NCBI GenBank assembly: GCA_029204225.1
Contig: CM055097.1
Coordinates: 53,683,592 to 53,747,591 of the forward strand
DNA: 64,000 bases
Direction: 5' to 3'
From: Diphasiastrum complanatum
Taxonomy: Eukaryota; Streptophyta; Lycopodiopsida; Lycopodiales; Lycopodiaceae
Shown here: positions 3,750 to 53,911 of the stretch, in pieces
Numbering within the stretch: position 1 is the stretch's first letter
Layout of the letters: every line of letters starts with the position of its first letter
Program-made: the position numbers and the translations under genes
Notes under the pieces: generated by a model
The model's input: the letters and a program-made list of their open reading frames with translations, nothing else
Database searches by the model: none
Told to the model about the DNA's origin: nothing

Positions 3750-4039
3750 CTGACAAATCAAATCTCTACGTTTAGAGAGAATGTTGCGACTATGGGTCAC
3801 AAATCCGTGCAAGCATCTGGACTGTCCATACGAGAAGAGCAAACGACAACTGATGGTAAGGGAAGCAGTATTAGTTTATATGGAAAAGTAATTGAAACAG
3901 ACATCTTACAAGACCTCGTTGCATCACTTAGAGTTGTAAAAAGTGTGCCACCGCCTCCTATTCCTCTGTGTCATCTGGTAGTCAACGAGGCTATTAGAAC
4001 AGTTCAAGAAAACATCACAGACCTTGGAATGAAGTTTCG
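3750..4039 (+). CDS. Exon of an unrecognised host gene, interrupted by a copia insertion
   Basis: An open frame follows a plausible acceptor (GGTCATAG at 3742-3749). It reads LTNQISTFRENVATMGHKSV and later SLYGKVIETDILQDLVASLR, PPPPIPLCHLVVNEAIRTVQ and ITDLGMKF, up to the LTR that begins at 4040. The final bases AAG TTT CG are split in mid-codon by the LTR. The sequence that follows the matching duplication at 22751-22755, read on the minus strand, supplies C ACA ATG GGA and keeps the frame open as FRTMGYPRDLG. The element therefore lies inside a coding exon whose second half is now 18.7 kb away in inverted orientation. ATG at 3792 is internal, not an evident start. The protein family is unknown to me. 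Confidence 0.6.
4035..4039. other. Target-site duplication TTTCG (left copy)
   Basis: The five bases TTTCG sit directly before the TGTGAAAA start of the LTR at 4040. The same five bases, on the minus strand, directly follow the TTTTCACA end of the minus-strand LTR (22751-22755). A five-base duplication is the normal size for copia integration. Sharing it between two distant half-elements indicates a single original insertion. Confidence 0.8.
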
Positions 4040-4730
4040 TGTGAAAAATTGCCTACATTGGCAAATCTAGCCATGTAGAATATTGTACATTTTGTCAATA
4101 TTGTTTGTTGGTTACTTCAATGGCCAAAGTGCCACTTGTACATACACACCTAAAGTAGGTTACCACAAGTCAAGAGGAGTGGTTGTGTCTATTTGGTAGT
4201 GATTCCTACTTTGTAGGATCTAGACCATGATTTATGATGAGATTTGTACCTACCATGCACCTACCAAGCATGACTCTTGGATCTAGGCTAGGGTTTTCAC
4301 ATTAGGGCAAGAAAGTGGAGTCTACTTCCTTATTACATGCTGGATTTTCACCTAACTTTGCAAAGGAAGTGTGTTTTACTATGTATTCACATTCTCCATA
4401 GTGAGAAGATAGAAACTTTTTGGAGCCTCAAGGAGAAACTCGAGTTTCCTCTCATTGTATGGTGATTACTCTATTTTTCCAATGAAACCCAACTTTGGCA
4501 CTTTGTAAACACTGTCTACAGGCCGTACTACAGCCTTATTTCCACACGTGTGGAGTTGGATTATACTAATTGATCAATGTTTTGATTGTCTCTACTTGTT
4601 TCCTATCAAGCTGCTAAACTAGATCTTGTTTTCTGATGACTAGTTTCTGATAGATTGTTTAACAAGTATACAATCACCTTGTGGATCATTCAAAGATCCA
4701 TTTATGGTCCTTAGTACTGTACTTTTCACA
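4040..4730 (+). repeat. 5' LTR of the split copia element (691 bp)
   Basis: The LTR starts TGTGAAAAATTGCC and ends GTACTTTTCACA, giving 8-bp inverted termini (TGTGAAAA/TTTTCACA). It is 691 bp, exactly the length of the minus-strand copy at 22756-23446. By eye I count about five base differences between the two. A TCCACACGTGTGGA palindrome lies at 4541-4554. It is followed at once by a primer-binding site. Confidence 0.9.
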
Positions 4731-4742
4731 TGGTATCAGAGC
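4731..4742 (+). promoter_or_regulatory. Primer-binding site, initiator tRNA-Met type
   Basis: TGGTATCAGAGC lies immediately after the LTR. It is complementary to the 3' end of plant initiator tRNA-Met, the usual primer for minus-strand DNA synthesis in plant LTR elements. Confidence 0.9.
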
Positions 4743-5361
4743 CAAGTACAAGGCCATTGATCTGTGTCTGAATCTAATCCAGTTTTAGCAGGTTTTGGGG
4801 CAAAAAGCTAGTATTGGAAGGGCGAGCTGGTATCCAGGTTTTGGTGAGGGGATTTGATCCCAAACTTTTTCAGGATCAAAATCCATACTGTTCACACGTG
4901 TGGGCATCTCTGAACCAGCATTTAATAACCCATATTCATTGGATCATAGAAAATTTATCTGGTATCAGTTTGATGTAATTTTTGGTGCAAATCCTAGGAT
5001 AACCTACCAAGATCACTTGCCATTGATTAGTTTTGAATTTGTTTCATGAAAACTAATTAATCTAGGCTGATTTCAGACCTTCTTAAAGTGAAAACCAGGT
5101 CTTGAAAGTACATCAAAGTGAATGAGAGAGATAAAGTCAGTTTTTGTCCAAGAATAGCCAAGATTGGCAAGATTTGCTTGAGTGTAGTTTTCATCTCATC
5201 TTATCTTCATTCCAGCTTGTGAGGGAGTGATAGAACTGTGATTACAAATCCATTTGTTGGATTAGAAGTCAACATTTGAGTGAAACACTGCAAGTTAGAA
5301 ACCTTTGTGAGTTTCAAGTACAAACAAATCTATATCTTGTGTGTAGAATCTTGCTAGTAAG

Positions 5362-7465
5362 ATGGGATCAGTGGGAGCCTACCTTCTAGAAGCTAGTGAG
5401 AGGTTAAATTCTACCAATTATGCTATTTGGAAAGTGAGGATTGAGTCACTAATGGTGCTCCAATATCTTTATGAGTTTCTAATAGATGATGAAGATGAAC
5501 CTCTAGGTGCACAGGAATTAGTGAGATACAAGAAGAGGTCTAGGCTTGCACTTCACTGTATTAAGATGAATGTAAGCAATGATCTTTTAAGGGAAGTATC
5601 ATCATGTAAGAGTGCTAAAGAGGCTTGGGAATCTTTAAAATCTATCTATGAGTCTAGTAACACTTCGAGGGTTCTCATGCTTAGGAATCAGATTCTACAA
5701 AGCATGAAGAGGAGTGATGAGAGTGCACAAGATTATGTGCTAAGAATCAAGTCTCTTAATAGGGAGTTAGCTTCCATTGGAGAGAAGATTCAAGATAGTG
5801 AGCTTGTTCAGATTGTCCTAAATGGTCTAGGGAGTGGCTTTACAAATTTGGTCCAAAGCTTTGCAATCCAAGACACTTTGCCTACTATAGAAAAGCTACA
5901 CAGTGTATTAGTAGTTGAAGAGTGTAGGATGTTGCATACCAATGCAAGAATGAATGCTATTTCTCTGCAGGATGGTGATGAGAAAGCTAATTTCTCATTC
6001 AAAGCAAGAAAAAGACCAATGGCAAGAAGAAGCACTTCAAGGAGACCAAGGAGGAGGATGAGGCTTCAAGCTCAAAGGGCAAGATCAAAGATTTTGATCA
6101 AGTCCAAGTACAAATGTTTTTTTTGTGGAAAGAAAGGACATTTTGCATCAGAATGTCTCAAGAAGAAGAAGGCACAAGAGAGCAAACAAAGCAACATTGC
6201 ACATCAGGAGGAAGAGGAGGATGAAGAGTCATCCTTGATGGTTTCCAACAAACCACCATCATCCAAGAGCAACACCAATGATTCTTGGTGGATTGATAGT
6301 GGGGCAAATTCCCACATGACATATCAAAAGGACATATTCTCCACCTTACTTTCTTACAATGACTTACATAGATCAATCTATACTGCAAGTAGTCAAGAAT
6401 GTAAGATAAGTGGAATAGGAACAATTCCCTTGTATGTGGGATCATCCAAAAGGACGAATCTAGATAATGTTCTTTATGTTCCTAAGTTAAACCAAGAAGT
6501 TGTTTAGTGTTGGCCAGTTAATGGATAATGGCCTAGATGTACAATTTAAGCATGGAGTTTGTTCCATCCTTAGAAATGATGAATGTATAGCCAAAGGCTT
6601 TAAGCAAGGTAGATTGTTTAAGCTTGATGCTAATATTGCAGTGGAGAGTGTTAACTTGGCAAAGGTGGAGCTATCAAAGGTGAAACTGTGGCACAAAAGG
6701 TTGGGCCACCCCAACTACAAAGCCATGGAATCTATGGCTACAAAGGAGCTTGCAGTTGGACTCCCCAAGCACTCCCTTCTTGAACTCATCCATTCGGATG
6801 TTCATAGTTTTTCACATGAGTCTAATGGTGGTGCCAAGTAATATGTAATCTTCATTGATGACTATTCTAGATTTTGTTGGATGTACCTCTTGTCTAGCAA
6901 AACAATGGTGTTTGATTCTTTTGTAAAGTTCAAGACTTTGGTAGAAAATCAACTTAGTACCAAGATTAAGGTATTAAGGAGTGATAATGGAGGTGAATAT
7001 ATCTCCAATAAGTTGATTGACTTTTGTAGTTCTAATGGCATAAAGAGGGAGTTGTCATGTCCATACACCCTTCAACAAAATGGAGTGAGTGAGAGAAGAA
7101 ATAGATCTCTTTGCGAGTGTGCTAAGGCCTTAAGGCTAGATGTTTCTCTATCCAAACCATTTTGGGGTGAAGCAATAACTTGTGCTAACTATTTGTGCAA
7201 TAGATTGCCAAACCAAGCCATTGGAGGAATCACACCATTTGAAGCTCTATTTGGAGAGAAGCCCAATCTCAAAGATCTCAAAGTTTTTGGATCCACTTGC
7301 TATGTACACCAATCCTTGGATAAGAGAAGGAAGGATGATGCAACATCCATCAAAGGCATCTTTGTGGGATATGGTGAGAATAGCAAAGGTTATAGAGTCT
7401 TCAATCCCATCACTAGCAAGGTGATAGTGAGTAGGGATGTTATTTTTGATGAAGGACATGCTTAG
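5362..7465 (+). pseudogene. Ty1/copia gag-protease-integrase (5' half of the split element)
   Basis: From ATG 5362 the frame gives gag (MGSVGAYLLEASERLNSTNY, LHCIKMNVSNDLL), a zinc knuckle CFFCGKKGHFASEC (CX2CX4HX4C) near residue 254, and a protease active site WWIDSGANSHMT near residue 311. An extra base near 6497 shifts the frame. Integrase then follows with the zinc-binding start LWHKRLGHPNYK. The CxxC half of that zinc site is missing, apparently by a small deletion near 6775. A TAA at 6839 interrupts the lead-in to IDDYSRFCWMYLL. The catalytic core shows RSDNGGEYIS and QQNGVSERRNRSL, and the last shared codons are VIVSRDVIFDEGHA. There is no RT here. The reading stops where sequence matching the minus-strand RT half should continue, so about 7460 is an inferred rearrangement breakpoint. 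Confidence 0.88.
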
Positions 7466-8480
7466 GTGTCAAAAAGTCAAAAATAGTGTATTTTTGTGGT
7501 TTTTTTGAGCTTAAATAGCTCTCAATTGGTGGTCTGAACCTATTGGATATGAAAGATATGATGGATTGCCTCTTATTTGAGCCATCATGCATCCAAATTG
7601 GAGTTGGGAGGCTTAGGCACCAATATTTGTTGAAGGACTCCATAAATGCAAATAGCTTATGATTGCTTGCTGGACCTAATGCAAGCCTCTATGCCTCTCT
7701 AACAAATCTTAGAAGAGTGCTTTGTAACCTCTAATTGGATGCATATTGGGCTGGAGTTGGATTTTTGACAATACCCCCTAGAAAAGTTCACCCTCCCACT
7801 GTAATTTTAGTCTAATACATATCGCACGTGTGATGCCCAGGTGGCAAGATGATGTGGTGAGTGTCTTGCTAACCTCCTCTCCCTTTGTGCTGTTCTTTAC
7901 AGCGACCAAATCGGAGTCCTGTAGCAAAAGTTATGGTCGTCGGAAGTTTGGCAATTTTTAGAGTGAAATTTGAAAATTTTCCGAAATGTTCTAATTGCAT
8001 GCAGCACTCTCTTGAATGTCAAAAAATGAACTCAAGAAGAAATCATAATTTCATATAATTATAATCAGTCCTTTAGAACAAAATTCCACACTGGAGGAAT
8101 TATATGAATCTCAATCCAATTGTCTCGTGTTTAAGAAATTTCTAAAAAGTATAGGTTCAAATAAAAGAGAAATAGATTTAAGGACCTCCAAATTTTGTAA
8201 ATAATGAGATACTATTTGGAATCCGGATCTATATGACATAATTTCCCAAAATACCCTGAACCAAACAACCAATGGATTTCTCTATTAGTATTACATTACA
8301 ATAACTACTAACCATCGGTCTACAAATCACTCTCACACAAGAAAATCTGTTTGGAATCACCGATGTCCCATACCACCAGCTTTTCCTCCAAAAGATCATT
8401 TTCTTCTAGATCTTCTTACCAAAAAGTTAAAAAGATTAATTGGTTATCCTATATCCCAATATGGGCTCAGATTCAAAACC
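7461..8480. other. Non-coding sequence after the inferred inversion breakpoint
   Basis: This segment bears no resemblance to the copia polyprotein that ends just before it. I see no intact ORF, RNA gene or LTR terminus. A GCACGTGTG core occurs near 7823. Confidence 0.4.
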
Positions 8481-8730
8481 AATTTCAGGAGATACTTCTT
8501 GAATTTCTCTCATGCTCCTTAAGCGTTTCATTGTAGATGAAAACATCATCTAAGAATACCGCTCCGCATTGACCCAGGTATGATGAAATATATCGTTCAA
8601 ATACTGTTGAAATGAGATAAGTGTATTCACTGAACCAAAAGGAACATTGGAGAATCTCAATATATCTAAAAACAATACTATAATAAATATGAAATATCCA
8701 TTTCAGAATCGGTAAAAATAATTTCATTCT
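8481..8730 (-). pseudogene. Gypsy reverse transcriptase remnant
   Basis: The minus strand keeps only scraps of RT: an FQQYLNDIF-like helix, then AVFLDDVFIYNETLKEHE, which aligns with the catalytic FLDDILIYS box and following helix of gypsy RT. Frames shift and stops are frequent on both sides. The sequence from here to about 9650 may be more of the same element, too decayed to read. Confidence 0.6.
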
Positions 8731-9897
8731 TTCAAAAGTTAGAAGTTTTCTTGGTTGTCTTAGTCATTATAAAGAAACATTCTATAATGTCTCAAAAAGG
8801 AATCCAAAATACTAGATTCCTGTATGGAATACATTCCAACTACTTTTCATTTGTAAATTCTAGGGATTTAATCCAAATCCAATTGCAACACAAAGACGGT
8901 TCCAGAAATGGATTTTTATCTGACTGCCATTACCTCTTCCCTTCGAATTTCGACATCTAAATGAACACTGGAAAAATGAATCCAAATTTCTAGAGGCAGT
9001 TTAAAAGATACAATTTCAAAGCCTAATTTCCATTTGCACCCACTCTCACAATCACTTATACTTCCGAGATTCAAAGTAGATCAACATAACTAGTCGAATC
9101 AGTCAACCAATTCTCTACACCACAGGCTTCATCTCCTTCCTCCCTTCCCAAATGTGGTTCAGACTGAAAGCCCCAGATTTGGCTAGGAAAAGGACCAATC
9201 TCGAGTCATTAGTACTTTATCTACTTGTAATTCAATTAGTTTTGATTGTTCACTAGTTAAGTGCCACACTCTACTATTGGCAAATCTACGTGTAGATCTG
9301 CATAGAAACCGTTCCAACAAGACTTGCATTATTATTGGTCTTTATTGATCACATAAAACAAGAAATGTTGTCTTTAGCTGACAGATTTCAAAATCTTTAA
9401 CCAAAAGTAAAAGGTAATGTGACCTTATAAAACTGACTGATTTGATCTTAATAAGGTCATTCACTTTACAAACAATTTCTGTTTATAAAAAACCAACAAA
9501 TTTGAACAAAATCAAAAGTTCCAATATTCTTTCAAAATTTTACGTAAATGGGATTTCCAAATTCCGTTCGATATGGACCAAAACTGTGAAAATCGATTTA
9601 AAGTATCGACTTGGCCATTTCACAACTACCACCCCATTTCGAAACATCTGACATGCATAAACAATGACATGTAATGATTTCTAAAAAATCAAAAAAAAAT
9701 TACGTTAAGTACCTAGTAACTGGAAAATTTGTTTTTCGACTAGCTTTTTACAAAACTGTATTCAATCATGAAATTACTCTGATCAGCCTATTGTACCACC
9801 TTGTATCATGCATCCAAACATTTTCAACATTGAAAAAGCACTCTACTGCTTCACAGCCTTGGAACAGGTTGAAAGAAGAAGATCAGGTTATTGCAAC
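8731..9897. other. Decayed sequence, nothing recognisable
   Basis: Short open frames occur on both strands, but none carries a recognisable domain or codon-like composition. No LTR terminus or primer-binding site was found before the copia gag that starts at 9898. Confidence 0.35.
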
Positions 9898-11500
9898 ATG
9901 GCTACAAGTGGTGGATTCATGTTGGAATGCAATGATGGGCTTACCTCAAGTAACTATTCATTGTGGAAAGTGAGGATGGAATCACTTCCTGAAATGAATG
10001 ACGTTTTGGATATTGTTGTAGATTTGGAGGAGTGACCAGCAAATCAACAAGATCAAATGAGGTATGATAAGAGGGCCAAAAGGGCTCTACACATGATTAA
10101 GATGAATGTTACCAATGAACTTCTCAAGGAGATTGGTAAGTGCACATCATCTTTGGAGGCTTGGGAAACTTTGAAGAAGCTTTATGAATCCAAGTCTACA
10201 TCGCCTAGAGGCAAAACTTTCAAAGTTTGCAAAAGAAGGAAGAGAGTACTCATGCTTTCGTTTTGAGGGTAAAAGCATCCAATGATGAGTTAGCATGTAT
10301 TGATGAAAGCATTAAGGAGGTAGAACTTGGTCAAGCTATACTTAATGTTTTGTTGGATGATCATGTTAATCTTGTTCAAAGTTTTACTATTCGGAAGACT
10401 TTGCCAAGTACTATAGATTTGCAAGAGATCTTGGTGAATGAAGAGTTTGGGCTTCAATCAAGAGGAGGTGGATCTACATCAAGATCTCATTATGAAGAGG
10501 AGGTTATGTTCATCAAAGGCAAGTTCAAGGAAAAAGGCAAAGGCAAGTGGTCTAAAGGGCAAGATCAAGGTGAGAATGAAAAGTCTAAGTTGAAATTCTT
10601 TTATTGCCACATCAAAGGGCATTTTGCAAATGAATGTTTGAAGAAGCAAAGAGATGAAGGTAGCAAGCAAATCAACTTTACTACTAATGATGAGGATCTA
10701 GGTGGTGGTGATTCTCTTTTGATGTGTTCTTCAAGTCTAATATTAAGTGAAGGTGACAAAGATTCATGGTGGATTGATAATGGAGCTAGTTCATACATGA
10801 CTAGTTACAAGGAGTTCTTTACATCTTTGGTCACATATGATGGAGCAAAGAAAGCAATTCACATGGCCAATGATGGTGAGTGTGTGATTGAAGAAGGTAT
10901 TGGTTCAATTTGTCTCTCTACTAATAGGAAAGCAAGACTTGATGGTGTTCTTTATATCCTTCACTTTCAAAGAATTTGTTAAGTGTTGGTCAAATGATAG
11001 AGAAAGGATACATGGTAAAGCTGGTGGTGATGCTTGTTTCATTACAAAGGAAGAAATCTTGGTTGCTAGGGGCAATAGACAAGGTAGAATTTTTCAAGCT
11101 TGATGCTTTTGTTATGGCTAATAAAAAGGATGGAATGGAAAAGGAGATTGGTCTCAACTTTCCAAAGTTACATTTTAGCATCAATAAGATTGGTGGACCT
11201 TATGCAAAGTCTAACAAGCTTCCTTATGCTAGATCTATGTCAAGATCTAATATGCTTCTTGGAGATGTTCATCTTTGTGCTAACTTGGCTAGTTATGAGG
11301 ATAATGATGGTTCTTCAATGGTTCTTCATGGAAAGTGCAAGCATGCAAAAGGTAAGGAAAGAGCTAACTTCATCAATAAATATGGTGAAGGTTCTTCCTT
11401 GGAAAAGGTTCATCATATGGAAAAAGATGTTGCTAGGTGCATTCATGAAGAAGATGGTTCTTCTACATTTGTGTTGAGTCGAAGAAAGTCATTTTTTTAA
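9898..11500 (+). pseudogene. Ty1/copia gag-protease remnant lacking integrase and RT
   Basis: ATG 9898 opens MATSGGFMLECNDGLTSSNY, a copia gag start. TGA at 10033 and a frameshift near 10205 break it. Gag continues with LNVLLDDHVNLVQSFTI to a zinc knuckle whose first cysteine is lost (FYCHIKGHFANEC instead of CFYC...). The protease active site reads WWIDNGASSYM, with the usual DSGA changed to DNGA. After a further break near 10980 the sequence MLSVGQMIEKGYMVK matches the post-protease segment of related elements. The integrase is replaced by about 400 bases of unplaced coding-like sequence ending at TAA 11498. It is dead and internally deleted. The next feature downstream is a large LTR of another family. 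Confidence 0.8.
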
Positions 11501-11515
11501 CAAGTGGAGTCACAT

Positions 11516-12723
11516 GTTTGTTGGATTATTCTCTTTCCTACTAATCGACTAATTGATTTTTCATCCAACTATTTATCCAGTTCTACAAATTTTTCCGTGT
11601 CTTTATACAATCTGCAGAATTACAAGTGTTTTTACACAATCTGCAGAAATACATAGAGTTTGACAACAGTGTCGCATTTTTATCTCTACAAACCCGATAG
11701 TATCACTTGTCAGGAATCTCGTGTAAAAATGCATTGTCGGCTTTTTTGCATTTTTTGCCTGTCAAAAATTGGATGTAAAAATGCAGTGTCACCTTTTTTG
11801 CCTGTCAGGAATTACATGTAAAAATGCAGTGTCATTTTTTTTTTCACATTTTTCGCCTGTCAGGAATTACGTGCAAAAATGCAGTGTTGTCTTTTTCGCA
11901 TTTTTCGCTTGTCAAAAATCACGAGTAAAAATGAAGTGTCACATTTCTCACCTGTGGCAATTTACGTTCATTAATGCAGAATGACAGTTTACGTTCATTT
12001 ATACAGACAGGCTGTTTACAACCAATTGTCACCGCTTATCAGCAAGTAACTTCTGAGAAGAACTGGATGAATGCCAACAGACACCAGCCAACTGGCAAAT
12101 GCATTTGACGACCTAATTACTTAGTATAAATTAGTTGTTCATACATCTCAATTATCAATCTGAAAATGTTATTGTAAATTGTGAAGGAGTTGAGTGTTAT
12201 TACACGACGCTTCCTGCGCTCTCATCAAAGCAGATCGTTCTCAACCATAAAGTATTGTTGTTAGCTCTCTATCAAGCTTTCAAGCTTGAACTCTCTTGAG
12301 CATTCTAGTTCAATCTTTTAGAGATGTATTTTAGAGTTTCTATTGTGCTACTGCTTATCAGGAGAGTTGCTTATTTCAGACTTATTCTCAGTTACTCAAA
12401 GACAACTTTAGAGTGCGCAGTTTCTATCTGCTTTTGTCTTGCACTCATCAGCATATGATCTTGTTTTTTAAAATCAATACTATTTTCTTATTGCGTTCAA
12501 TGTGTCAGAATGCATGCATCTCTGTATTGCTTTTGTAATTGATAGAAATTGTCTGAGAATTCAATATTTTATGTTTGGCTCCGTAATCACTTAGTATCTA
12601 GCGAAAGTTAGTTGCTAAAGATTGAACATGATTTCCATCACTACCGCTTTGTTCAATTTTTTATAGACGTAGTCATGCATTGGAAGCCAAAAGTTTTCGC
12701 ATTCTTACTCACCTATTTTTGAC
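11516..12723 (+). repeat. LTR (about 1.2 kb) related to the LTRs of the 48695-54974 copia element
   Basis: It ends TTTTTGACA directly before a TGGTATCAGAGC primer-binding site, so the right edge is firm. The left edge near 11516 (TGTTTGTTGGATTA) is less sure. The stretch around 12570-12680 (ATGTTTGGCTCCGTAATCA, GATTTCCATCACTA, ACGTAGTCATGCA) matches the corresponding part of the LTRs at 48695 and 53923. An internal minisatellite occupies about 11690-11955. No matching partner LTR for this copy is in the window. Confidence 0.65.
11690..11955 (+). repeat. Minisatellite inside the LTR, unit roughly 55-60 bp
   Basis: The words CCTGTCAGGAATTAC, GTAAAAATGCAGTGTC and TTTTTCGCATTTTTCGC recur four to five times, with small changes such as AAAATTGGATG, AATCACGAG and GTCAAAAA. 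The copies differ in the length of the T-run. Two shorter, related words (GACAACAGTGTCGCATTTTT) precede the array near 11655. Confidence 0.75.
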
Positions 12724-12735
12724 ATGGTATCAGAG
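12724..12735 (+). promoter_or_regulatory. Primer-binding site, initiator tRNA-Met type
   Basis: TGGTATCAGAGC follows the LTR end. Similar words recur nearby (TGGTATCAGG at about 12745 and TGATATCAGAGC at about 12851). The coding part of this element is missing, because another element's LTR begins at 12936. Confidence 0.8.
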
Positions 12736-12935
12736 CATTCTAACATGGTATCAGGATATACCAATATAGTATCAATGGTAGCTCACTATTTCTTTATCTA
12801 AACCATCACAGTATCATACTTGTAATCTCTATCAGGGCCTAATACTATTTTGATATCAGAGCAAAAAGCTCTAATACTTGATATCTTTCGCAATATCAAA
12901 TTGATATCATATTCTTTAGTTCCTTTCATCCTTTT

Positions 12936-15357: not shown

Positions 15358-16371
15358 TTGTTGAAGATGTTCAAATCTAGTTTCTTGAAAGTCAAAAATT
15401 ACATTTGTAGAATCATATCACAGGATTTTATTCACATGGCATCAATAGGTGGCATCCTATTGAAGGAAAGAAAGGATCCTGAGTGCAACCTTTGTGGCAA
15501 GGGAGGATATTTTTTTCTCAAGATGCTACAAAAAGAAGACCAGTCCATCCAAGGAGAACCAAAGCAAGGGGGCCGAGGTGAAGGATGGAGCTTCAAGTTC
15601 AAAATGCAAATACAAGAAGGACAAGTCCAAGGAAGGGTGTTTCCTTTGTGGAAAGGTGAATGAGGCTTGGAGTCTCACAAGGACTTGCAAGATTTGTCTT
15701 CAAGAGTCCATCACAACACGTGTCAAATCTTTTGAAATTTTTCATTTGGAAGTGCATTGTTTGGTTCAAGATGCAAAGATAGATGTCACTTTCATGAAAG
15801 TAACTTGGATTTATTTTATGTCCTTGGAAATTATTTTGCTTGGAACTTTGGACAAGTTCAAACTTATTGTTATTATCCAAGAGAAAACAGTCAAGAATAA
15901 GGAGCAATCACAAAATGAAAATAGTTTCATTTATGCTCTCATGTCAACTCATTTTGCTTTGAAGAGATTTTTGTATCTCAAAGGTGGATTAAGGCAATAC
16001 TAGTTGAGTGTGACGCCTTAAAAGATAGTAAAGTATGTTTTCCTTGTAAGCTTACATTAGTTATGAAGTCAAGGAAATGGAAATATCTTCATAATGTCGG
16101 ATCTTTTGGTTTCAATTAGATCATGAATGATGTGTTCATTCATAAAGATGAAAATTGTAAGTTTTCAATTTTAAAGGCAAGTTGTAAACTTCTTATGAGA
16201 ATAAGTGAAGCATCCAAAGTGGACACTTATATCCATAAGCAAGTAGTTAGCCTTATTGAGATGGAAATACCTTTTGATTTCAATATTGGAAAAATCATGC
16301 CAAGTTGTGTTGATTTTTGGACTCATGTTTCTAGCATAAGTAATCTTGATAATCATAGAAGCGCATATTGA
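15358..16371 (+). pseudogene. Family A element, upstream ORF copy: zinc-knuckle-like part and first copy of the unknown domain
   Basis: Two overlapping frames carry knuckle-like pieces, CNLCGKGG at about 15488 and CFLCGKVNEAW at about 15639. Both lack the full CX2CX4HX4C spacing, so they look like broken gag knuckles. Lysine-rich sequence lies between them (KKKTSPSKENQSKG, KCKYKKDKSKEG). Further on, 16123-16371 encodes ASCKLLMRISEASKVDTYIH and KQVVSLIEMEI. These are clearly related to a segment of the next ORF (ANCKLFMRVSESSSKDTYLH), so this is one arm of a tandem duplication. Stops and frameshifts separate the parts. There is no protease, integrase or RT. Confidence 0.6.
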
Positions 16372-17300
16372 ATGGTCATACTTTTTGTGATCATTATGAG
16401 ACATGGAAGTCTCGGATTTCCATCAAAAAGGAGCACCATGAAGAGGATCTTAAGGAGTCATCTCAAGGTTCAAATGTGCCAAGGATTGAGGAGGAGAATC
16501 CTTCTCAAGGTTCAAGTGTGCCAAGGATTGAGGAGGAGAGACCTTCTCAAATTGTGATTCCAAAAATAAACTCAAGAAATATGGTTGAATCCATGTGGCT
16601 CACATTTCAAGGGAAAGAGGAGCATATCTCATGTGGTATACATCTCATACTTACTTCTCTTATGTCATTTAATAAATCAATTTGCTTTAGTGAAATCATT
16701 GCATCTCAAAATTGGAGTAAAGCCATACTAGTTGAGTATGAAGTCTCTCTTGAGAACATAGATGATGTTCTTAAGAGATTGAAATTGATTTCAAATAAAT
16801 TAGAAAGCAAATGGTTATTTCATCAAATGTATGCTCTTGAGTCATGCAAGAGCAAAAGTGATTTTTTCACTCATAGTTTGAAAATTTGTATTGAGGCAAA
16901 TTGTAAACTCTTTATGAGAGTAAGTGAGTCATCTTCTAAAGACACTTATCTCCATAATGAAGTATTTAGCCTCATTGGATCTGAGATTAGGATGGTAAAC
17001 AAGCATGAAGATATATTGCAAACACTTTGTTATTATAGCATGCATAGTCTTGCCAATCTGGATGAGACTAATTCTCTAGATCGTAGTAACATGATGTTAG
17101 ATCTTTGTGATCCTAAAAAATCAAAAAGAAATCTTTATTTTCTCATGGAGGAGCATGCACATGAAGAAGGAGCAAGCCTCAAAGTCAAGCATCTACATGA
17201 AATTTGGAAGGAATCGATTTTGGAGGTGCTAGGATGGTGCAAAGCTCTCAAGTTCATCAAAGATGTCAACATCAAAAAAACACTATCATGGATATGGTGA
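16368..17300 (+). CDS. Unknown 310-residue protein of the family A element, carrying the second copy of the duplicated domain
   Basis: An uninterrupted frame of 310 codons starts at ATG 16368. The N-terminal third has a short tandem repeat (SQGSNVPRIEEENP then SQGSSVPRIEEERP, residues ~32-58). The middle has AILVEYEVSLENIDDVLKRL and KLISNKLESKWLFHQMYALE. Residues ~180-205 repeat the domain found at 16123-16371. The C-terminal part is charged (EEHAHEEGASLKVKHLHEI). I find no retroviral enzyme motif, zinc knuckle, transmembrane segment or known fold. It lies between two LTRs with a primer-binding site, so it is a passenger or a gag-like gene of a non-autonomous element. Its long open frame argues for recent constraint, but the ATG may not be the true start. 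Confidence 0.55.
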   Translation: MNGHTFCDHYETWKSRISIKKEHHEEDLKESSQGSNVPRIEEENPSQGSSVPRIEEERPSQIVIPKINSRNMVESMWLTFQGKEEHISCGIHLILTSLMSFNKSICFSEIIASQNWSKAILVEYEVSLENIDDVLKRLKLISNKLESKWLFHQMYALESCKSKSDFFTHSLKICIEANCKLFMRVSESSSKDTYLHNEVFSLIGSEIRMVNKHEDILQTLCYYSMHSLANLDETNSLDRSNMMLDLCDPKKSKRNLYFLMEEHAHEEGASLKVKHLHEIWKESILEVLGWCKALKFIKDVNIKKTLSWIW

Positions 17301-17437
17301 TTTCCGATCAACATCAAGCTCATTAGATGATCTTCACACCTTTTGAACCAGCAAAGACCAATTCAGCCCATGGAGTCAAGTTCAAGATCATCATGTTTTC
17401 CATCATGCTAGATTTACCAAGCTAGATTTTTTAGGAG

Positions 17438-18190
17438 TGTGATAAATGCAAAAATAAGCTTGGTAGAGGCCAAAAATCATGTATATAGGATGATTACACA
17501 TGTGTGGAGCCTGTTCCCACGTGTGAAAGTAGTGTACTTGTCATGTACCATAATCATATAGGTTGTACATATGATTTAATTCAAGTTCTAGTGGCTAAAA
17601 AGGCCAAAAACTAGTTTTCTAGACATATGACACATGGCATCAATCTATTGATTGCATGAGCCACATCCTTTGGTTAGGTGTCATATCAAATGTGTAGAGG
17701 ACAACTCACATGTGTGAAAATAAGCTGAAGTAGGCAAATTTTGACTTCTAAAAGATTTCCAAGTAGATCTCCATTTAAAAGAAAAATGGACCAAAAGTGC
17801 TCAAAATAGAAGGTTTTGTCCAAGTGTCAGTTTTGCATGATGAATCATCATATGACAAAGCACCTTCACACATGTGGGATCAGAGGGATGATCAGTACCA
17901 CGATCTCCCACTTATTGTATATATAGAGCCACAGTTGGCCATAATCAATGTGAGACACCAATCTTGGTTTTGGAAGCAATTTTGAGTGATTCTCTCCATT
18001 TGTCTAAATTTGTTTTAATTGTTTTGAGGTTCTATCAATGTGTACTTGATTTTTAGGTTGGAGTCCGTACTCAAATAGTGTTTCACATGTGTGAAACCAT
18101 AAAGTACACTTACCTTCAATTAATGATTGTTCTTGTTAGGATTTTGTGTCTAGAATTGATCTAGATTGATCTTAATCTGAAGTAGATTGA
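17438..18190 (+). repeat. 3' LTR of the family A element, truncated at its right end
   Basis: It starts TGTGATAAATGCAAAAATAA, matching 12936. Identity is very high up to GAAGTAGATTGAT, where it stops short of the expected right end by about 70 bases and abuts another LTR at about 18192. It has a small extra segment (TTACCTTCAATTAA, near 18110) missing from the 5' copy. The missing end means the target-site duplication cannot be tested. Confidence 0.85.
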
Positions 18191-18191
18191 T

Positions 18192-18729
18192 TAGTAAGTG
18201 TATTTTTTCAGTATGAAGAAGTGTCAAACTTCAAGACCTTCGAAATGAGTCCATTTTCATGTATTTTGGACATATATGCCAATTTTACCTATATAGGGCA
18301 TATTTTAGGTAAGGAGGGTCTAGAGAGAGGAGAGAGAGTCATCTCTCTCAGCTATATATAGCAGGTAGGCCGTGGAGAAACAGGTTGGAGCAGATCCATT
18401 GTATTCATTTGCTTAATGAGAGATTTTTCTATTGGGTTCTCCTTCCATTGTTGGCATTGTGTAGTGATTGAGTTCAAGCTTTGTGTGTATGATCTTAGGT
18501 GCTTTCCAAAAGTGATAGGCTGATGTATTATGGACTGTATAATGCTATTTTGGGCCGCACTTGATGTTTATGGAAGTTTCCATTTGTGATAAATGCTTTT
18601 TGATCAAGTTCTTTGCATTCTAGGTAGCATAGAATGTGTTGCCAATTCCTAGCTTATGTAGTTTGGAGTGCAAGCATTCAAGCCAATGATCTTGGAGTTT
18701 AGATCCACTTAGGATCTGTATTTTTCACA
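18192..18729 (+). repeat. LTR of family G, plus orientation, 5'-truncated
   Basis: It ends GATCTGTATTTTTCACA. It shares, in inverted orientation, the landmarks of 18923-19560: AAACTTCAAGACCTTCGAAATGA, GAGAGAGAGTCATCTCTCTC and CGTGGAGAAACAGGTTGGAG. A TATA box (GCTATATATAG) lies near 18350. It begins abruptly at the cut end of the family A LTR, which suggests that one was inserted into or recombined with the other. Confidence 0.75.
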
Positions 18730-18910
18730 GCTTCTTCTCAGCATCTGATCTTCAATAGACCTGAAATATGCTTTTGATCCACAAGTTCAACTCACAAAAC
18801 AAAGGTTAGTAAGATTTGATCAACAATGCAATGCATAATCATGCTAGAACTTGATCAAACATCCAAATATCACCATAAATGGAAAACTTACTAAAAATAG
18901 TAGCCAACTA

Positions 18911-18922
18911 GTTCTGATACCA
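18911..18922 (-). promoter_or_regulatory. Primer-binding site of the minus-strand family G LTR
   Basis: Read on the minus strand, TGGTATCAGAAC follows directly after the TTTTCACA end of the LTR at 18923-19560. The internal region is only about 190 bases before the opposing LTR end at 18729, so the element has lost its body. Confidence 0.75.
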
Positions 18923-19308
18923 TGTGAAAAAAGTGGATCTTGAATGGATCCAAACTCCCAAAATACTTGGCTAAGATCTTTGCACAACAAGCTACAAAAG
19001 CTAGAAATAGCAAAGCATCCTAATGCTACCTTTGATACACATGAACTTGACAAAGCATTCAAGAGACAAAAGAAACTAATAAAAGGTACTGATGGCAGCC
19101 AAAAACAATAGTATACCAGCCCTACAATAGCAGCCTACCACTTTTGAAAACCTCTTTAGATCATACACAAAAGCTTGAAGACAATACACAAAGCAATGCT
19201 CTCAATGGAGGAAGAAACTGTGACAATGATCTATTGATCTCTCTCAACAATACAATAAGTTTCTCCAACCTGTTCTCCACGATTTCAGCCTAATATAGGT
19301 GAGAGAGA

Positions 19309-19398
<90 letters not shown>

Positions 19399-19560
19399 GA
19401 ACTTAGGACCCAAATTTAGGGCACCAGTAGCCTAAAATAGCCAATTTTGGCCTATATGTCCAAATAACATGATTTTGGTGTCATTTCGAAGGTCCTGAAG
19501 TTTGAGACTTCTTCAACATGAAATATATACTAAAATAAAAGTATCTAGGCCTCTTTCACA
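18923..19560 (-). repeat. LTR of family G, minus orientation (638 bp)
   Basis: On the minus strand it runs from TGTGAAAGAGGCC (19560) to CCACTTTTTTCACA (18923). It is head to head with the plus copy at 18192-18729, forming a large imperfect inverted repeat with a spacer of about 190 bases. It contains the CT microsatellite at 19312-19397, which is only a short GAGAGAGAG in the plus copy, so the microsatellite has expanded in this copy. TTTCACACGTGTGAAA spans its outer edge at 19554-19569. Confidence 0.75.
19312..19397. repeat. (CT)n microsatellite, about 86 bp
   Basis: A near-perfect CT dinucleotide run sits inside the minus-strand family G LTR. The homologous position in the plus copy (about 18320-18345) has only a few repeats. 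Confidence 0.97.
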
Positions 19561-19639
19561 CGTGTGAAATACTAGATCCAAAACTATATACAAAAATTGC
19601 CAATTTAGACCTCAAACTAGCTAGGAAATGTTGACAATT

Positions 19640-20599
19640 TTCACAAGGATCTGCAAGCCTCCAAGGATCTCTCCTCTACCTGTGTCCCTACTCTTTAAAC
19701 ACAAAGATAGATAACAAGCTGGCCTCAAGTATTCATCACCCAACCATAGCTAGATCCAAGCTCCAAGCAAGACCTATCTAGCACCCCCTTGCTAACCATA
19801 AACAAATCACAAGCATACCACAACACTCCATAGCATTCTCAAGATCCAGACCCTACTTATGTCCCATACCATAAGCAAGATCCAAACCTCAAGCATACTA
19901 CCACAAGAAAGCACTCTACACACTAGTAGCAACACTAGAGCATAAGCAAAGCAAACAAGAGAGATCTCCCCCTCCAAATGGGCGCCCTACTACCCTCATA
20001 TAGATGGCCCATGGACCCCTCCAATGCAGTATGGAGTTCTATGCTCATCCAATGAGAGAGAGAGAAGCTAGGGGAGTTAAAGAATTTCCAAGAGCCTCCA
20101 TAGGCTTATGGAATGTCAAGAGACTCCTTCCATAACCTATGACTCTTTGAATGTCTTTCTTGTGGGAGTTGGAAACTCAATGGACACTTTAGAAGGGCGC
20201 CCTTTTACTAGGTCCCATTGCCCAAGCTGTGCAAGTATACTTTGGTCCTAGACCAATAAAGTGATATGGTTCAAGGTTGAGGCCCAAGGTTTAGAAAAAT
20301 AGTCATCCAATGAATTTCTAACACCTCTCTAGGTTCCATACCTCCATCCAAGGTATAGACACCTACCCGTCCTTACCCAAGGACACTAGTACCTTAATCT
20401 AAGACACCTACTCTTAATACTAAGGGTACCCCTTATCCAAGGGTCATGTGACTCCATACCTCCAACTAGGTATAGTCACTTGTCTGTCCTTATCTAAGGG
20501 CACATACCCTTAGTCCTAAGGGTACCTTGCCATTTAGCCCCCAACACTAGATGGACTAATAGGGGTCTAAAGTACTACTAGTTACATAGGTATGTAGCA
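19640..20599 (-). repeat. Probable 3' LTR of the gypsy element at 20615-21514
   Basis: The minus strand has a polypurine tract (TAGGGGGAAGGAA, about 20600-20612) directly before TGCTACATACC at 20599, as expected for the start of a 3' LTR. The low-coordinate end is not defined by a matching copy and is my estimate. The block contains repeated words such as CCATACCTCCA and AAGGTATAG around 20338-20475. Confidence 0.45.
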
Positions 20600-20614
20600 T
20601 TCCTTCCCCCTAAA

Positions 20615-21514
20615 CTTAAATTTTTCCTTGCAGGGAAAAATTTGGAAAATTCTTCTAGAGATCAGCCTCCTTTTCTTAGGTATCCTCCTCTTCTGATTTT
20701 CCCCTCCACCTGACTAAAAATTTCCGAAGCACTCTACTTCGTAGAGTCCTCTGCTTTGTAGAGTCCTCTGCCGGCTATTAATTATTGCCTCGGGTTCAGG
20801 TTGTTTACTCACGGACTCATCACGAAGAAGTTCCACTAGATCTTCCACAGGGACCAGGGTCTCCCCAGACCCCAACGAGGGTTTCAACTTACTAACGTGG
20901 AAAGCATGATGAATTCCAACGTTAGCTGGAAGGTCTAGTTTGTATGTGACCTTGTTTATCACTTGGATAACCTTAAAAGAACCGCAATACCTAGGCGCCA
21001 ACTTTGCACACTTTATAGTTTTCAAGCCCCTAGAGTGACTAGGGACTCTCAAAAACACTCAGTCGTTGACCATGAATACCTTGTGCTTCCAAGATAGATC
21101 AGCATAGTGCCTTGCCCTGTCCTGGGCACTTCTTATGCTATCTTTAGCCAGCTGTAACATTTCTTGCATATCCGCAAGGAAATCAGCTGCGGCTTGCACC
21201 CGTAGGTTTTTCATGCCAACACTAATTGGTGATCGAGGTTAAAAACCATACATAAGCATGAAAGGGCTAAATCCGGTCGCTAAATGTTTTGCATTGTTAT
21301 ATGCAAATTCCACCAGTGGAAGGTAATGTTTCCAATCAGACTGCCGATGGCCCACATATGCTCGAAGCATATCCTCCATCGTCTGATTGGTCCTTTCTGT
21401 TTGACCGTCTGATTCTGGATGATCTGTAGAACTCAAACTTAAAGTTGTTTCCAAATTTTCAAATACTGCTTGCCAAAAATTTCTAGTGAATACGGTCACT
21501 AACAATATCGCAAT
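20615..21514 (-). pseudogene. Gypsy (chromovirus-like) integrase core, tail and chromodomain, decayed
   Basis: The minus strand reads the end of the integrase core (TRNFWQAVFENLETTLSLS, TDHPESDGQTERTNQTMEDM, YLPLVEFAYNNAKHLATGF), then the linker and GPY/F-like module (LAPRYCGSFKVIQVINKVTY, GIHHAFHVSKLKPSLG). Last comes a chromodomain-like end (FLVRWRGKSEEEDT, then KNFPNFSLQG). Integrase inserts element DNA, and the chromodomain steers it to chromatin marks. Stops (TGA near 21060 and others in the chromodomain) and a missing N-terminal half make it non-functional. Its upstream edge abuts host-gene sequence at about 21515-21545. Confidence 0.82.
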
Positions 21515-22755
21515 GCATGCCCTCTTCACGTGGATTGGGGTCCGACGTGGTTGCATCAAGGCCGCCTGCACGGTCATGTGACTCAATAGCAATATCTAGG
21601 CGCTTTTTAGATCTCAGCTCTGCGGGATCTATGTGCCTTTTTGTTTTTGTTTTTGAGGCTGATCCTTGTGGTGGAAGTGGCGAGAGTTTATTTCTTCCCT
21701 TTTGGAATGCCTGCCATTCAAGATGCAGGTCATTTTCACAATTGTGTCTCTCACCCTTCGGGTAATCCAGCCACCAGGGACATTTGTTTACTTCCCAAGC
21801 TGTGATTCCCCAATCTTTCCACTATGTGGGGAATATTATTCACCTTAATGGCCGCGTCATGCTGAGCTTGACACTCCCCAAGAGATAGATTCTCTCTATC
21901 AATTCTGGAGGTTGCCTGATCGAGCAACCTTGTGAAATCTTCCTGTGCATGCATTGCCAATACAACGTTACAATTATCAGTGCATCCACAAAGATAAAAT
22001 ACACTGCACCAGCTTCAAGTTTTCTTACCTTGAAAACCAATTGAGAAAATATTACCATTGGCACATTGTACCAAGATTTGTGTTGGCCTTTTCATTCTAT
22101 TCTCATTTTTGCTTCCATCCAATATCTATCTTGGATTGGCATGTTCCTCAACAGTGTGGCCTTGTCAGATAGTCCAAATTTCTACAGCATGAACACGTCA
22201 CGTGACAACGTGTGCGACACATGTACGCAGGTCAACCTACAAACAAATCAATTACATCAGGACAAGGAACAACCTTATAAAAATGGGGAGTGGTGACACT
22301 AAAATGAGGTCCATACTTGTTGATGGAATGTAGAGCAAGTATGAGCTCGCCTTCTTTAGATCTGCTTGCCTCGATGAAAGTGCAATCCACCCTAATATGT
22401 CTTGCTTTATTCAATGGAAATTTTGAGCCAAAAAATGCGAGGAACTTTAGCACTTAACAATTAACGAGAACATAAAAAGAACAAATATCTGCAAACAACT
22501 TTGTATACCTTGTTTTATCTTTTTCATCCATGCGGTGGCTCGATGGTTGCCATCCCAAATGATGTACTTCTTATTGCTCAAGTGTTGCCACTCGGGTGAG
22601 TTACAAAGATCTTCCTCAAACTCCATATTTACCTCTCTCCAAATAGGACCCCAATCTTCTAGATCGTATTGGTCCACTTCAAGCTCTGACTCACCTACTC
22701 TTTTCATGGAGACAAAGAAAGTTCCCAAATCTCGAGGATATCCCATTGTGCGAAA
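21515..22755 (-). CDS. Multi-exon piece of an unrecognised gene with a DGNHR motif
   Basis: Reading down from 22755, a first exon part (to 22509, donor G|GTATAC) encodes TMGYPRDLGTFFVSMKRVGE, VDQYDLEDWGPIWREVNMEF and KKYIIWDGNHRATAWMKKI. An exon from 22452 (acceptor TTAAG) gives VLKFLAFFGSKFPLNKARHI and CTFIEASRSKEGELILALHS. One ending at 22029 (AAG|GTAAGA) gives KFGLSDKATLLRNMPIQDRY but holds a TGA. The exon 21942-21844 has clean CACAG and AAG|GTGAAT edges. A last one from 21821 encodes ITAWEVNKCPWWLDYPKGER and CENDLHLEWQAFQKGRNK. The gap before it is only 22 bases, too short for an intron, so a frameshift is likely there. DGNHR resembles the ParB/sulfiredoxin-like motif, which is inference only. 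It continues the exon at 3750-4039 in frame and is probably now a pseudogene. Confidence 0.6.
22751..22755. other. Target-site duplication TTTCG (right copy, read on the minus strand)
   Basis: Plus-strand CGAAA, which is TTTCG on the minus strand, directly follows the TTTTCACA end of the LTR at 22756-23446. It equals the duplication at 4035-4039. Confidence 0.8.
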
Positions 22756-23446
22756 TGTGAAAAGTACAGTACTAAGGACCATAAATGGATCTTTGAATGA
22801 TCCACAAGGTGATTGTATACTTGTTAAACAATCTATCAGAAACTAGTCATCAGAAAACAAGATCTAGTTTAGCAGCTTGATAGGAAACAAGTAGAGACAA
22901 TCAAAGCATTGATCAATTAGTATAATCCAACTCCACACGTGTGGAAATAAGGCTGTAGTACGGCCTGTAGACAGTGTTTACAGAGTGCCAAAGCTGGGTT
23001 TCATTGGAAAAATAGAGTAATCACCATACAATGAGAGGAAACTCGAGTTTCTCCTTGAGGCTCCAAAAAGTTTCTATCTTCTCACTATGGAGAATGGGAA
23101 TACATAGTAAAACACACTTCCTTTGCAAAGTTAGGTGAAAATCCAGCATGTAATAAGGAATTAGACTCCACTTTCTTGCCCTAATGTGAAAACCCTAGCC
23201 TAGATCCAAGAGTCATGCTTGGTAGGTGCATGGTAGGTACAAATCTCATCATAAATCATGGTCTAGATCCTACAAAGTAGGAATCACTACCAAATAGACA
23301 CAACCACTCCTCTTGACTCGTGGTAACCTACTTTAGGTGTGTATGTACAAGTGGCACTTTGGCCATTGAAGTAACCAACAAACAATATTGACAAAATGTA
23401 CAATATTCTACATGGCTAGATTTGCCAATGTAGGCAATTTTTCACA
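22756..23446 (-). repeat. 3' LTR of the split copia element (691 bp)
   Basis: On the minus strand it runs from TGTGAAAAATTGCC (23446) to GTACTTTTCACA (22756). Length equals that of the copy at 4040-4730, and I counted about five mismatches by eye. It includes the stop codon of the RT polyprotein and the palindrome TCCACACGTGTGGA (22932-22945). Confidence 0.9.
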
Positions 23447-25240
23447 CGAAACCTCAAATCTAGCCTTGGAGATCACAATGCTTTTATCAATAACTCCAAT
23501 TGAAGATCTAAGCTTGACAAATGAATCTTTAGGTAAAGGTTTAGTAAACAAATCAGCCAAGCAACTTGGTGATGGCACGTGTTGGAGCTTGATCTCTTTA
23601 GCTTGCACTTTTTCCCTCACGAAATGATGAGCAATTTCGATGTGTTTGCTCCTTGCATGGAATGTAGGATTAGTTGCAAGTGATTGGGCTGATTGGTTGT
23701 CACAATAGATGATAGGGATCTCCTCCTCCATGACATGAAGCTCCACCAATAGCCTTTTGAGCCACAAGACCTCCTTGCATGTTGATGTCAAGGCCTTGTA
23801 TTCGGATTCTGTGGAAGATAGAGAGATGGTATCTTGCTTTTTAGAAAGCCATGATACTACTCCATCACATAGAAAGGTGGCAAAGGCACTTGTTGATCTT
23901 CTATCCACTTTGTCACCTGCAAAATCCGAGTCACTATAGGCTCTTAAGCCAAGATTAGTTCCTCTATACAAAATACCAAAATTCTTAGTGAATGAAATGT
24001 ATCTAAGAACTCTTTTTGCCATCTTCCAATGTGAAACTAGAGGACTTCGCATGAATTGGCTTAACTTTCCAACACTATAACTAAGATCAGGTCTAGTTAT
24101 AGTTAAATAGATCAAGAATCCAATAAGCCTTCTATATAATGTGATGTCCTCAAAGGATGCTTCATCACAACCAATAGATGCTTTTACATGTTGCTCCATT
24201 GGTGTCTCAATGCCTTTACAATTCTTCATTCCAAATCTATCTAGGATGGATGTAGCATATTTAGATTGACAATTGAAGCTAAAATCACATCGTCTAATAA
24301 CCTCTATTCCAAGAATGAAGCTCAATAGGCCGAGATCTACCATCTTAAACTCTTTTGCTAAAGCAATTTTTACATCTCTAATTCCATCTAGATCATTACC
24401 ACTCAAGATAATGTCATCTACATACAAAACAAGAATAATGATCATGCCATCATGAAAACTTATATACAATGATGGATCATAGGCACTCATTACAAAATTG
24501 ATGGAAATGAGAAAAGAGTTTAGCCTAGAGTACCATGCTCTAGGTGCTTGCTTGAGCCCATAAAAGCTCTTCTTCAAAAAACACACCTTTCCTTCATGCT
24601 TTGCCTTGATGAAGCCCTCGGGTTGCCTCATGTAGATCTCTTCCTCCAAATAACCATTGAGGAATGCATTTGTGAAGTCAAGTTGGAATAGCTCCCAATT
24701 GAAGGTTGTAGCAAAACTAATGATCAACCTGATAGTAACAAGCTTAGCCACAGGAGCAAAAGTCTCATCATAGTCAATGCCTTTGGTTTGTAAAAAACCT
24801 TTGGCAACAAGCCTAGCTTTATGCTTGCTTATTGATCCATCTTGATTATACTTCAACCTAAACACCCACTTGCAATCAAGAGGTTTCTTCCCTTGAGGAA
24901 GATCCACAAGATCCCAAGTATGATTTTCAATAAGAGCATCATACTCTACTTGCATAGCATCCATCCAACTTTTAGACTTACAAGCATCTTCATAGCATGT
25001 TGGCTCATCTAACATTGAAGTAAGAAAGGTGTAAGATGTGAAAGATGATGAGCCTTCCCTTTGATCACCTTGACCATCATAGGTGAGCCTCAATGGCTCG
25101 GATCTTGCCCTTGTAGATCTTCTTGGAGTTCTTGCATCTTGAGGTGGATCCTCAAGTTCTTCTTCACTTGGAAGCTCCTCCTCCATCCTAGCATGATCCT
25201 TGGCATCAAGATGATTAGTAGCATTATTGACAGCCTTATG
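23408..25240 (-). CDS. Ty1/copia reverse transcriptase-RNase H (3' half of the split element)
   Basis: The minus strand is open from about 25240 to the stop at 23408, roughly 610 codons. From ATG 25186 it gives 592 residues. The order is an acidic linker (EEELPSEEELEDPPQDARTP), the RT lead-in (WMDAMQVEYDALIENHTWDL), RT palm motifs (KARLVAKGF, FAPVAKLVTIRLII, QLDFTNAFLNG) and the catalytic box LYVDDIILSG. RNase H follows (AYSDSDFAGD, SLSSTESEYKAL, YCDNQSAQSLATNP) with the C-terminal KHIEIAHHFVREKV and LADLFTKPLP. All catalytic residues I can check are present and no stop interrupts it. It has no gag or integrase of its own. The missing 5' part matches in family and in content the half at 4040-7460. 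The frame breaks near 25240, at a GH-coding triplet pair also seen at the other breakpoint. Confidence 0.93.
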   Translation of the reverse strand, partial: HKAVNNATNHLDAKDHARMEEELPSEEELEDPPQDARTPRRSTRARSEPLRLTYDGQGDQREGSSSFTSYTFLTSMLDEPTCYEDACKSKSWMDAMQVEYDALIENHTWDLVDLPQGKKPLDCKWVFRLKYNQDGSISKHKARLVAKGFLQTKGIDYDETFAPVAKLVTIRLIISFATTFNWELFQLDFTNAFLNGYLEEEIYMRQPEGFIKAKHEGKVCFLKKSFYGLKQAPRAWYSRLNSFLISINFVMSAYDPSLYISFHDGMIIILVLYVDDIILSGNDLDGIRDVKIALAKEFKMVDLGLLSFILGIEVIRRCDFSFNCQSKYATSILDRFGMKNCKGIETPMEQHVKASIGCDEASFEDITLYRRLIGFLIYLTITRPDLSYSVGKLSQFMRSPLVSHWKMAKRVLRYISFTKNFGILYRGTNLGLRAYSDSDFAGDKVDRRSTSAFATFLCDGVVSWLSKKQDTISLSSTESEYKALTSTCKEVLWLKRLLVELHVMEEEIPIIYCDNQSAQSLATNPTFHARSKHIEIAHHFVREKVQAKEIKLQHVPSPSCLADLFTKPLPKDSFVKLRSSIGVIDKSIVISKARFEVSCEKLPTLANLAM

Positions 25241-49730: not shown

Positions 49731-49742
49731 TGGTATCAGAGC
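49731..49742 (+). promoter_or_regulatory. Primer-binding site of the full-length copia
   Basis: TGGTATCAGAGC begins one base after the LTR end and matches the initiator tRNA-Met 3' end. Confidence 0.9.
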
Positions 49743-49886
49743 TATTTTCATAACCTGATAAGCTTCCACAGTACAAGACTCTACTAGCCGATAGAGTAAT
49801 TGTCTACTTGTTTTGTATTTTCAGTATCAGATTTTCATACTTAACTCATTGATAGTTTCTCCTATCACTTAGACTAATTCTTCCAC

Positions 49887-53700: not shown

Positions 53701-53911
53701 CAACCCTAGATTTCACTCTAGGAGTAAGCACATTGAAATCACATATCACTACATCAGGGGCAAGGTTCTCGACAAAGAAGTAAGCTTAACGTATTGTAGA
53801 ACGCAGGACATGGTTGCAGACATATTCACGAAAGCACTGAGTGTTAATGCACACAACAACTTTTGTGCATTGCTTAGTTTGAAGATCAAGGCGTTCACAG
53901 ATCCAGATTAA
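50776..53911 (+). pseudogene. Protease-integrase-RT-RNase H of the full-length copia
   Basis: The protease site is NSWFLDSGATQHMTS (about 50795-50830). The integrase zinc-binding start LWHYRLGHLNHAIVQRIS (51198) lacks the normal CxxC (PVRQDYLVG in its place). The core has VVHSDICGP, RFDNGGEYISIEF and SPQYNGLAKRKNRTL. RT begins near 52320 (WREAMDREYSSMIKNQTW) with several stops and a frameshift between 52470 and 52870. It reopens with FIIITLYVDDMLLFSNNTN, so the catalytic YVDD is kept. RNase H shows NGYSDASWRGDVD, ALSSIEAEYIAVSQ and FCDNQSAIALSANP, and it ends near the stop at 53909 after VADIFTKAL. Confidence 0.88.

Follow-up and report, generated by a model that had tools for sequence, protein, structure and literature searches.

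How did a single retrotransposon come to lie in two halves on opposite strands of one chromosome? The question is raised by 64,000 nucleotides of chromosome 6 of the lycophyte Diphasiastrum complanatum (C6:53683592-53747591, hereafter the window), in which a Ty1/copia element within a host-gene exon has its 5′ half at 4040-7463 on the plus strand and its 3′ half at 25227-22756 on the minus strand. A preliminary description of the window, made from its letters, had proposed an inversion with one breakpoint inside the element, with misassembly as the alternative. Our search of the 1.74-Gb assembly identified an uninverted copy of the locus (copy B, element at C6:54417444-54423344), to be compared with the inverted window copy (copy A). 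We assign a probability of roughly 85% to the account in which the element inserted once, an end-joined inversion later split it in copy A, and copy B is the other haplotype, present as a misplaced haplotig, so that the inversion is probably heterozygous. The rearrangement is known from assembled sequence.

Results

The genome search with the long terminal repeat (LTR; 40 of 1652 candidates scored) returned two further matches on C6, at 54417444 and 54422654, which bound the same insertion in copy B: the same left flank, TTTCG, and the same right flank, all on a single strand. The 1.5 kb on each side of the insertion are 99.3% and 99.1% identical between copy B and the window, and five of the six differences between the two LTRs are common to both copies. 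After the element, copy B runs from window position 22755 down to 7464 in reverse and then from 25227 upward in forward orientation, which is the order before the inversion. A single contiguous stretch of pol in copy B (L009) holds both sides of the break, with the integrase followed by the reverse transcriptase. The distance from the pol break to the second break is about 18 kb, and 26 kb in copy B, where extra inserts are present. Copy B thus bears out, at both breakpoints, the inversion with one end inside the element that the preliminary description had proposed, with a length of 17,763 bp.

Both junctions could be placed to the base. In the left-junction search (window 7300-7700; 40 scored of 3431 candidates), 38 of the 40 scored matches end at window 7463, and the remaining ones are the window itself and copy B from 7464 on. 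In the right-junction search (window 25500-25000, minus strand; 40 scored of 2825 candidates), 37 of the 40 start at 25227, copy B's element among them, and one starts a base earlier; the other two are the window itself and the outer flank of copy B, ending at 25227. In each set of 40 scored matches, the outer flanks came up in no copy other than A and B. At the pol break, copy B keeps 12 bp (54420861-54420872) between the bases matching window 7463 and 25227, which are missing from the window, and at the second break it holds 15 bp (54447173-54447187) that are likewise gone from the window; no bases were added at either join. The 12 bp are also kept in 10 of 10 other element loci read from the left-junction matches, as well as in L009 (copy B) and in a copy on C9 (L010), and this retention in other copies of the element marks the window arrangement as derived. 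The two halves had previously been described as ending at 7460 and 25240 and as meeting at Gly-His codons (GGACAT and GGTCAT). The arrangement of the halves stands, but their ends lie at 7463 and 25227 (13 bp off for the latter), and the halves do not abut, since 12 element bases intervene in copy B and the other copies read, and GGTCAT belongs to the outer flank.

A hairpin (GACACC TTAAT GGTGTC, with a 6-bp stem; copy B, C6:54447168-54447184) holds one of the cuts of the second break in its loop; about 2% of window positions fall in such hairpin loops, and the hairpin signal is therefore weak. Placing the pol break by public relatives of the reverse transcriptase half was tried and dropped because these proteins are too distant (the closest, P0004, shares 51% identity) and their linker lengths vary.

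The flanks of the element record a single insertion into coding sequence. When joined, they form one reading frame, in which the left exon ends in ...NITDLGMKF followed by CG, and the right flank, read as its reverse complement, gives C and then TMGYPRDLGTFF... A search with the joined-exon protein returned one protein among 394 candidates, P0001, whose alignment across the empty-site joint is ungapped and has 99 identities in 135 residues. The outer flanks are now 18.7 kb apart on opposite strands; the ungapped P0001 alignment and the shared frame indicate that they were once contiguous. The TTTCG flanks, which had been noted outside both LTRs, are thus no chance resemblance, and copy B carries the same flanks on one strand. 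The right-hand host exons lie on the minus strand within the inverted segment. In copy A, two TAG codons interrupt the frame ahead of the ATG at 3792; one of them is CAG in copy B. Going by P0001, the homology of the left exon may reach to about 3636 through two in-frame stops, and the P0001 residues upstream of the ATG resemble the window frame by eye. Either the host gene may have suffered damage already, or its start may be located further in. The profile search gave no Pfam family for the host exons beside the insertion.

The element itself has the expected parts (Table 1). Both halves, the paired 691-bp LTRs, and the TTTCG outer flanks are present as previously described; the LTR length was correct, but the LTRs differ at six positions instead of the estimated five or so. 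LTR ends of the TG...CA type and a 5-bp target duplication are both present, and the primer-binding site, TGGTATCAGAGC, is one that we take to be of the initiator-methionine tRNA type. The integrase precedes the reverse transcriptase, the rve and SH3-like domains being in the 5′ half and RVT_2 in the 3′ half. The RNase H that had been read into the 3′ half scored no separate Pfam domain, unlike the reverse transcriptase (RVT_2), although the open reading frame (ORF) continues beyond RVT_2.

Table 1. Features of the inverted copia locus, in window coordinates
Feature	Position	Strand	Basis
Inverted segment, 17,763 bp	7464..25226		Order and strand reversed relative to copy B
Inversion junction 1, joining pol to the outer flank of breakpoint 2, 0 bp shared	7463..7464		Comparison with copy B; element matches end at 7463
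Inversion junction 2, 1 bp shared	25226..25227		Comparison with copy B; element matches start at 25227
5′ LTR, 691 bp	4040..4730	+	6/691 differences to 3′ LTR
3′ LTR, 691 bp	22756..23446	-	LTR comparison
Target duplication TTTCG, left copy	4035..4039	+	Identical flank in copy B
Target duplication TTTCG, right copy	22751..22755	-	Identical flank in copy B
TTTCG replacing last five bases of polypurine tract	23447..23451	-	8/8 other 3′ LTRs read keep the purine tract
Primer-binding site TGGTATCAGAGC	4731..4742	+	Sequence
gag, zinc knuckle and Pol_BBD region (stop-to-stop open frame)	5347..6507	+	Pfam
Integrase core (rve) and SH3-like domain, to breakpoint	6842..7463	+	Pfam; last element-matching base at 7463
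3′ half of pol, with reverse transcriptase and the coding region that follows it	23450..25227	-	Pfam RVT_2; homologues of ORF from 25249; element starts at 25227
Host-gene exon left of insertion, from ATG	3792..4039	+	In frame with right flank; P0001, 68% identity over 81 residues
Host-gene exon right of insertion, inside inverted segment	22510..22755	-	In frame with 3792-4039; P0001, 81% identity over 53 residues

The order of events is insertion, then the split of A and B, and then the inversion in A. That the inversion is younger than the insertion, as previously claimed, held, with the inversion confined to A and the insertion common to both copies. Aligned over eight blocks, copies A and B show 130 differences in 63,419 positions and, with five more blocks, 196 in 92,128, both sums leaving out repeat-derived side matches. 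Under assumed substitution rates between 1e-9 and 6.5e-9 per site and year, which are not clubmoss-measured values, the A/B split, as the oldest possible date of the inversion, falls at roughly 0.16-1.0 million years. Under the same assumed rates the LTR pair places the insertion at 0.67-4.3 million years, a date that is suspect.

The suspicion arises from the sequence next to the 3′ LTR. Twenty-seven LTR flanks were compared, ten of which belong to 3′ LTRs judging by their upstream sequence. The 3′ LTR is preceded by GAGGAGGAG in seven and by GAGGAG in one of the eight other copies, and by GAGGTTTCG in both A and B; the TTTCG of the left flank thus stands before the 3′ LTR in both copies and in none of the eight other 3′ LTRs read. 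This pattern suggests gene conversion from the 5′ LTR, together with 5 bp of its flank, to the 3′ LTR before the A/B split, which would be the simplest account. Such a suspected conversion weakens LTR dating, so that the rearrangement is datable, as had been announced, only in part. The A/B divergence sets a better upper limit on how old the inversion can be. On LTR conversion, Jedlicka et al. (2020; PMC7251063) report that 25% of LTR pairs in plants contain potential converted regions, and they advise caution on LTR dating.

The relationship between A and B was read from the ends of the contig that carries copy B. This contig (54403677-54518367; 114,691 bp) is flanked by two nominal 10-kb gaps of N (54393677 to 54403676 on the left and 54518368-54528367 on the right, 10,000 bases each; the gaps were read in part, and all parts read were N). 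Its first base matches A at 53673747 and its last base matches A at 53773934, in the interior of A's contig, with long matches to A between its ends save for insertions and two rearrangements. Copy A is free of N from 53673592 to 53776591, window included, and beyond this, all of the 29 samples taken on both sides, each of 60 bases and most of them spaced by 9 kb, were without N. The sequence to the left of B's left gap matches C6:55446089 (minus strand) and two small contigs, with A absent among the matches listed, and the 100 bases adjoining the gap had no match in the A stretches compared. The sequence to the right of the right gap matches C6:54761730 and C6:55131535 at 96%, again with no A among the matches listed, and an 8-kb stretch of A had no match in the C6 stretch beyond this gap. 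A probe from A, 9.5 kb upstream of the shared stretch, had one genome match, itself; a partner could hide in B's left gap. Homology extending over the whole of one contig but no further than its gaps points to an unpurged second haplotype. Copy B is accordingly most likely the other haplotype, an unpurged and misplaced haplotig as judged from these alignments, which would make the inversion probably heterozygous in the sequenced plant. More duplicated contigs occur in this part of the assembly, as seen for C6:54390000-54390799 (L042), with near-identical copies on C3143, C2118, and C6:55446089 (minus strand).

A second REARRANGEMENT separates the two copies (B, C6:54483829-54509718; A, C6:53744363-53765298, that is, window 60772 and beyond). 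Beyond window 60771, copy B carries an LTR element, E3, that is missing from A. Its LTRs (54485622-54486274 and 54509066-54509718) are 653 bp long and identical, with ATTAG on both sides, and A keeps the intact E3 empty site with ATTAG. An 18.2-kb block of A (53746068-53764411), situated just upstream of the E3 site, lies within E3 in B (54486673-54504919) in the opposite orientation. Next to this block, A has about 1.7 kb (53744363-53746067) that resembles a portion of some other LTR element and is unmatched in B. The arrangement of E3 would be explained by a three-break cut-and-insert event or by two inversions. It is a tentative and rather doubtful extension that each haplotype has its own end-joined break inside an LTR element and that the locus is a structural hot spot of repeated LTR-element breakage; if so, young LTR elements would have been repeatedly broken and mis-joined here, with only about 0.2% substitution between A and B.

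The copies differ at smaller scales as well. Copy B has an 8.95-kb stretch between matches ending at window 18729 and beginning at 18191, against 0.54 kb in A (window 18192-18728); a 930-bp stretch is present in B only (at window 28930/28931), and a 100-bp stretch in A only (window 18-117). Direct-repeat pairs resembling the LTRs of other elements were seen at window 12936-18191, inside the inverted segment, and at 48690-54962 and 60823-62709. An AINTEGUMENTA/AP2-type gene lies at window 39936-44255 on the minus strand, about 15 kb outside the inversion, and its protein shares 96% identity with O6H91_06G105000 of D. complanatum, in an alignment covering 66% of the query; two ORFs of this gene gave no Pfam family in the profile search. 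Copy B also spans the AP2-type gene, and annotation may count it twice.

Discussion

Our comparison of the two copies establishes that there was a single insertion and that the assembly contains an inversion, of which it also gives the direction and the base-level junctions. In the mechanism that we propose, a Ty1/copia element inserted into the host-gene exon, duplicating TTTCG, and two double-strand breaks, one in pol and one in the flanking DNA beyond, would have followed later. The segment between the breaks would have been turned over and rejoined by end joining, with the loss of 12 and 15 bp, on copy A only, B retaining the prior order. We infer end joining of two breaks from joins that share 0 and 1 bp and from the small, separate losses, and the same lack of junction homology argues against both homologous recombination and assembler error.

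The strongest challenge concerns what copies A and B are. If the inversion is real and A and B are recent segmental duplicates, their position on one scaffold, in the same orientation and about 730 kb apart, would be as expected, and this placement of B, 0.73 Mb from A as a duplicate would be, weighs against our preferred account. So do three further points: the gap lengths are nominal, and a partner of the A probe with a single match could lie within them; a genuine segmental duplication could extend past contig B and be interrupted by the gaps; and the divergence is uneven, 0.08-0.37% in eight re-aligned blocks, fitting alleles or duplicates. Against duplication, B sits between two N gaps with homology to A right out to both its end bases, A is absent from the matches listed beyond the gaps, and the 100 bases left of B's left gap are unlike the A stretches compared. 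We therefore infer that A and B are alleles and regard recent duplication as unlikely. Both junctions are known from the assembly and not from spanning reads, which leaves some room for an assembly chimera, in which the window contig would have been mis-joined within high-copy copia pol and the plant would carry no inversion. The pol region is indeed highly repeated (3431 and 2825 first-look candidates), and other duplicated contigs exist in the region. However, no N was found in the window or the neighboring A stretches read, mis-joins normally occur at shared sequence whereas 0 and 1 bp are shared here, and each break lost its own few bases while both ends of the segment were joined consistently. 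A chimera is quite improbable on these grounds, and the misassembly alternative of the preliminary description is disfavored.

Other routes to the split element fare worse. Homologous recombination between inverted repeats, such as the 7-bp TAGGTGT, or a nested element at the break, might be considered, given that the window has a TAGGTGT close to each junction and that the two LTRs are inverted repeats today. The LTRs, however, are not located at the breakpoints. The TAGGTGT motif at junction 1 was created by the join itself, and copy B places the motif of junction 2 about 25 bp outside; a nested element at the pol break was likewise rejected, since in the two sets of 40 scored matches no copy besides A and B has the outer flanks of the junctions. 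Such routes are very improbable. Two separate insertions, of a 5′ fragment and a 3′ fragment that happened to land in opposite orientation, have the orientation now seen in the window as their sole support and are hardly credible beside the shared target duplication, the host frame across the empty site, and the one uninterrupted insertion in copy B with five of six LTR differences in common.

The probably end-joined inversion of copy A, with copy B as the likely other haplotype, makes the locus informative in several ways. The ancestral and inverted orders are contained in one assembly with single-base breakpoints, so that the repair signature and the order of events, from insertion through suspected LTR conversion and the split of the two copies to inversion, are readable without a second genome. 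The LTR clock is suspect here for a visible reason. The locus also illustrates how, in a lycophyte, an unpurged haplotig may bring structural change to light or be taken for it. The unusual aspect is the joint presence of the two arrangements and of a visible sign of LTR conversion; the locus was not recognized in the literature search listings.

In most respects the locus resembles known systems. The element is an ordinary copia member, sharing with plant Ty1/copia elements the TG...CA LTRs, the 5-bp duplication, the tRNA-type primer site, the zinc-knuckle gag, and the integrase placed before the reverse transcriptase, but differing in that it is split across two strands by the inversion and that the target duplication replaces the final bases of the purine tract. 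The inversion is of the ordinary end-joining type, with two breaks, 0-1 bp of homology, and losses of 12 and 15 bp, although here both arrangements are present in one assembly and one break lies in a young retrotransposon. As with unpurged haplotigs, a short contig located between scaffold gaps has both ends homologous to the interior of a longer contig, whereas the copies here differ by at least two large rearrangements. Compared with LTR gene conversion as treated by Jedlicka et al. (2020; PMC7251063), the surroundings of the 3′ LTR here carry the letters of the 5′ flank, with the difference that the suspected tract extends 5 bp past the edge of the LTR and is directly visible.

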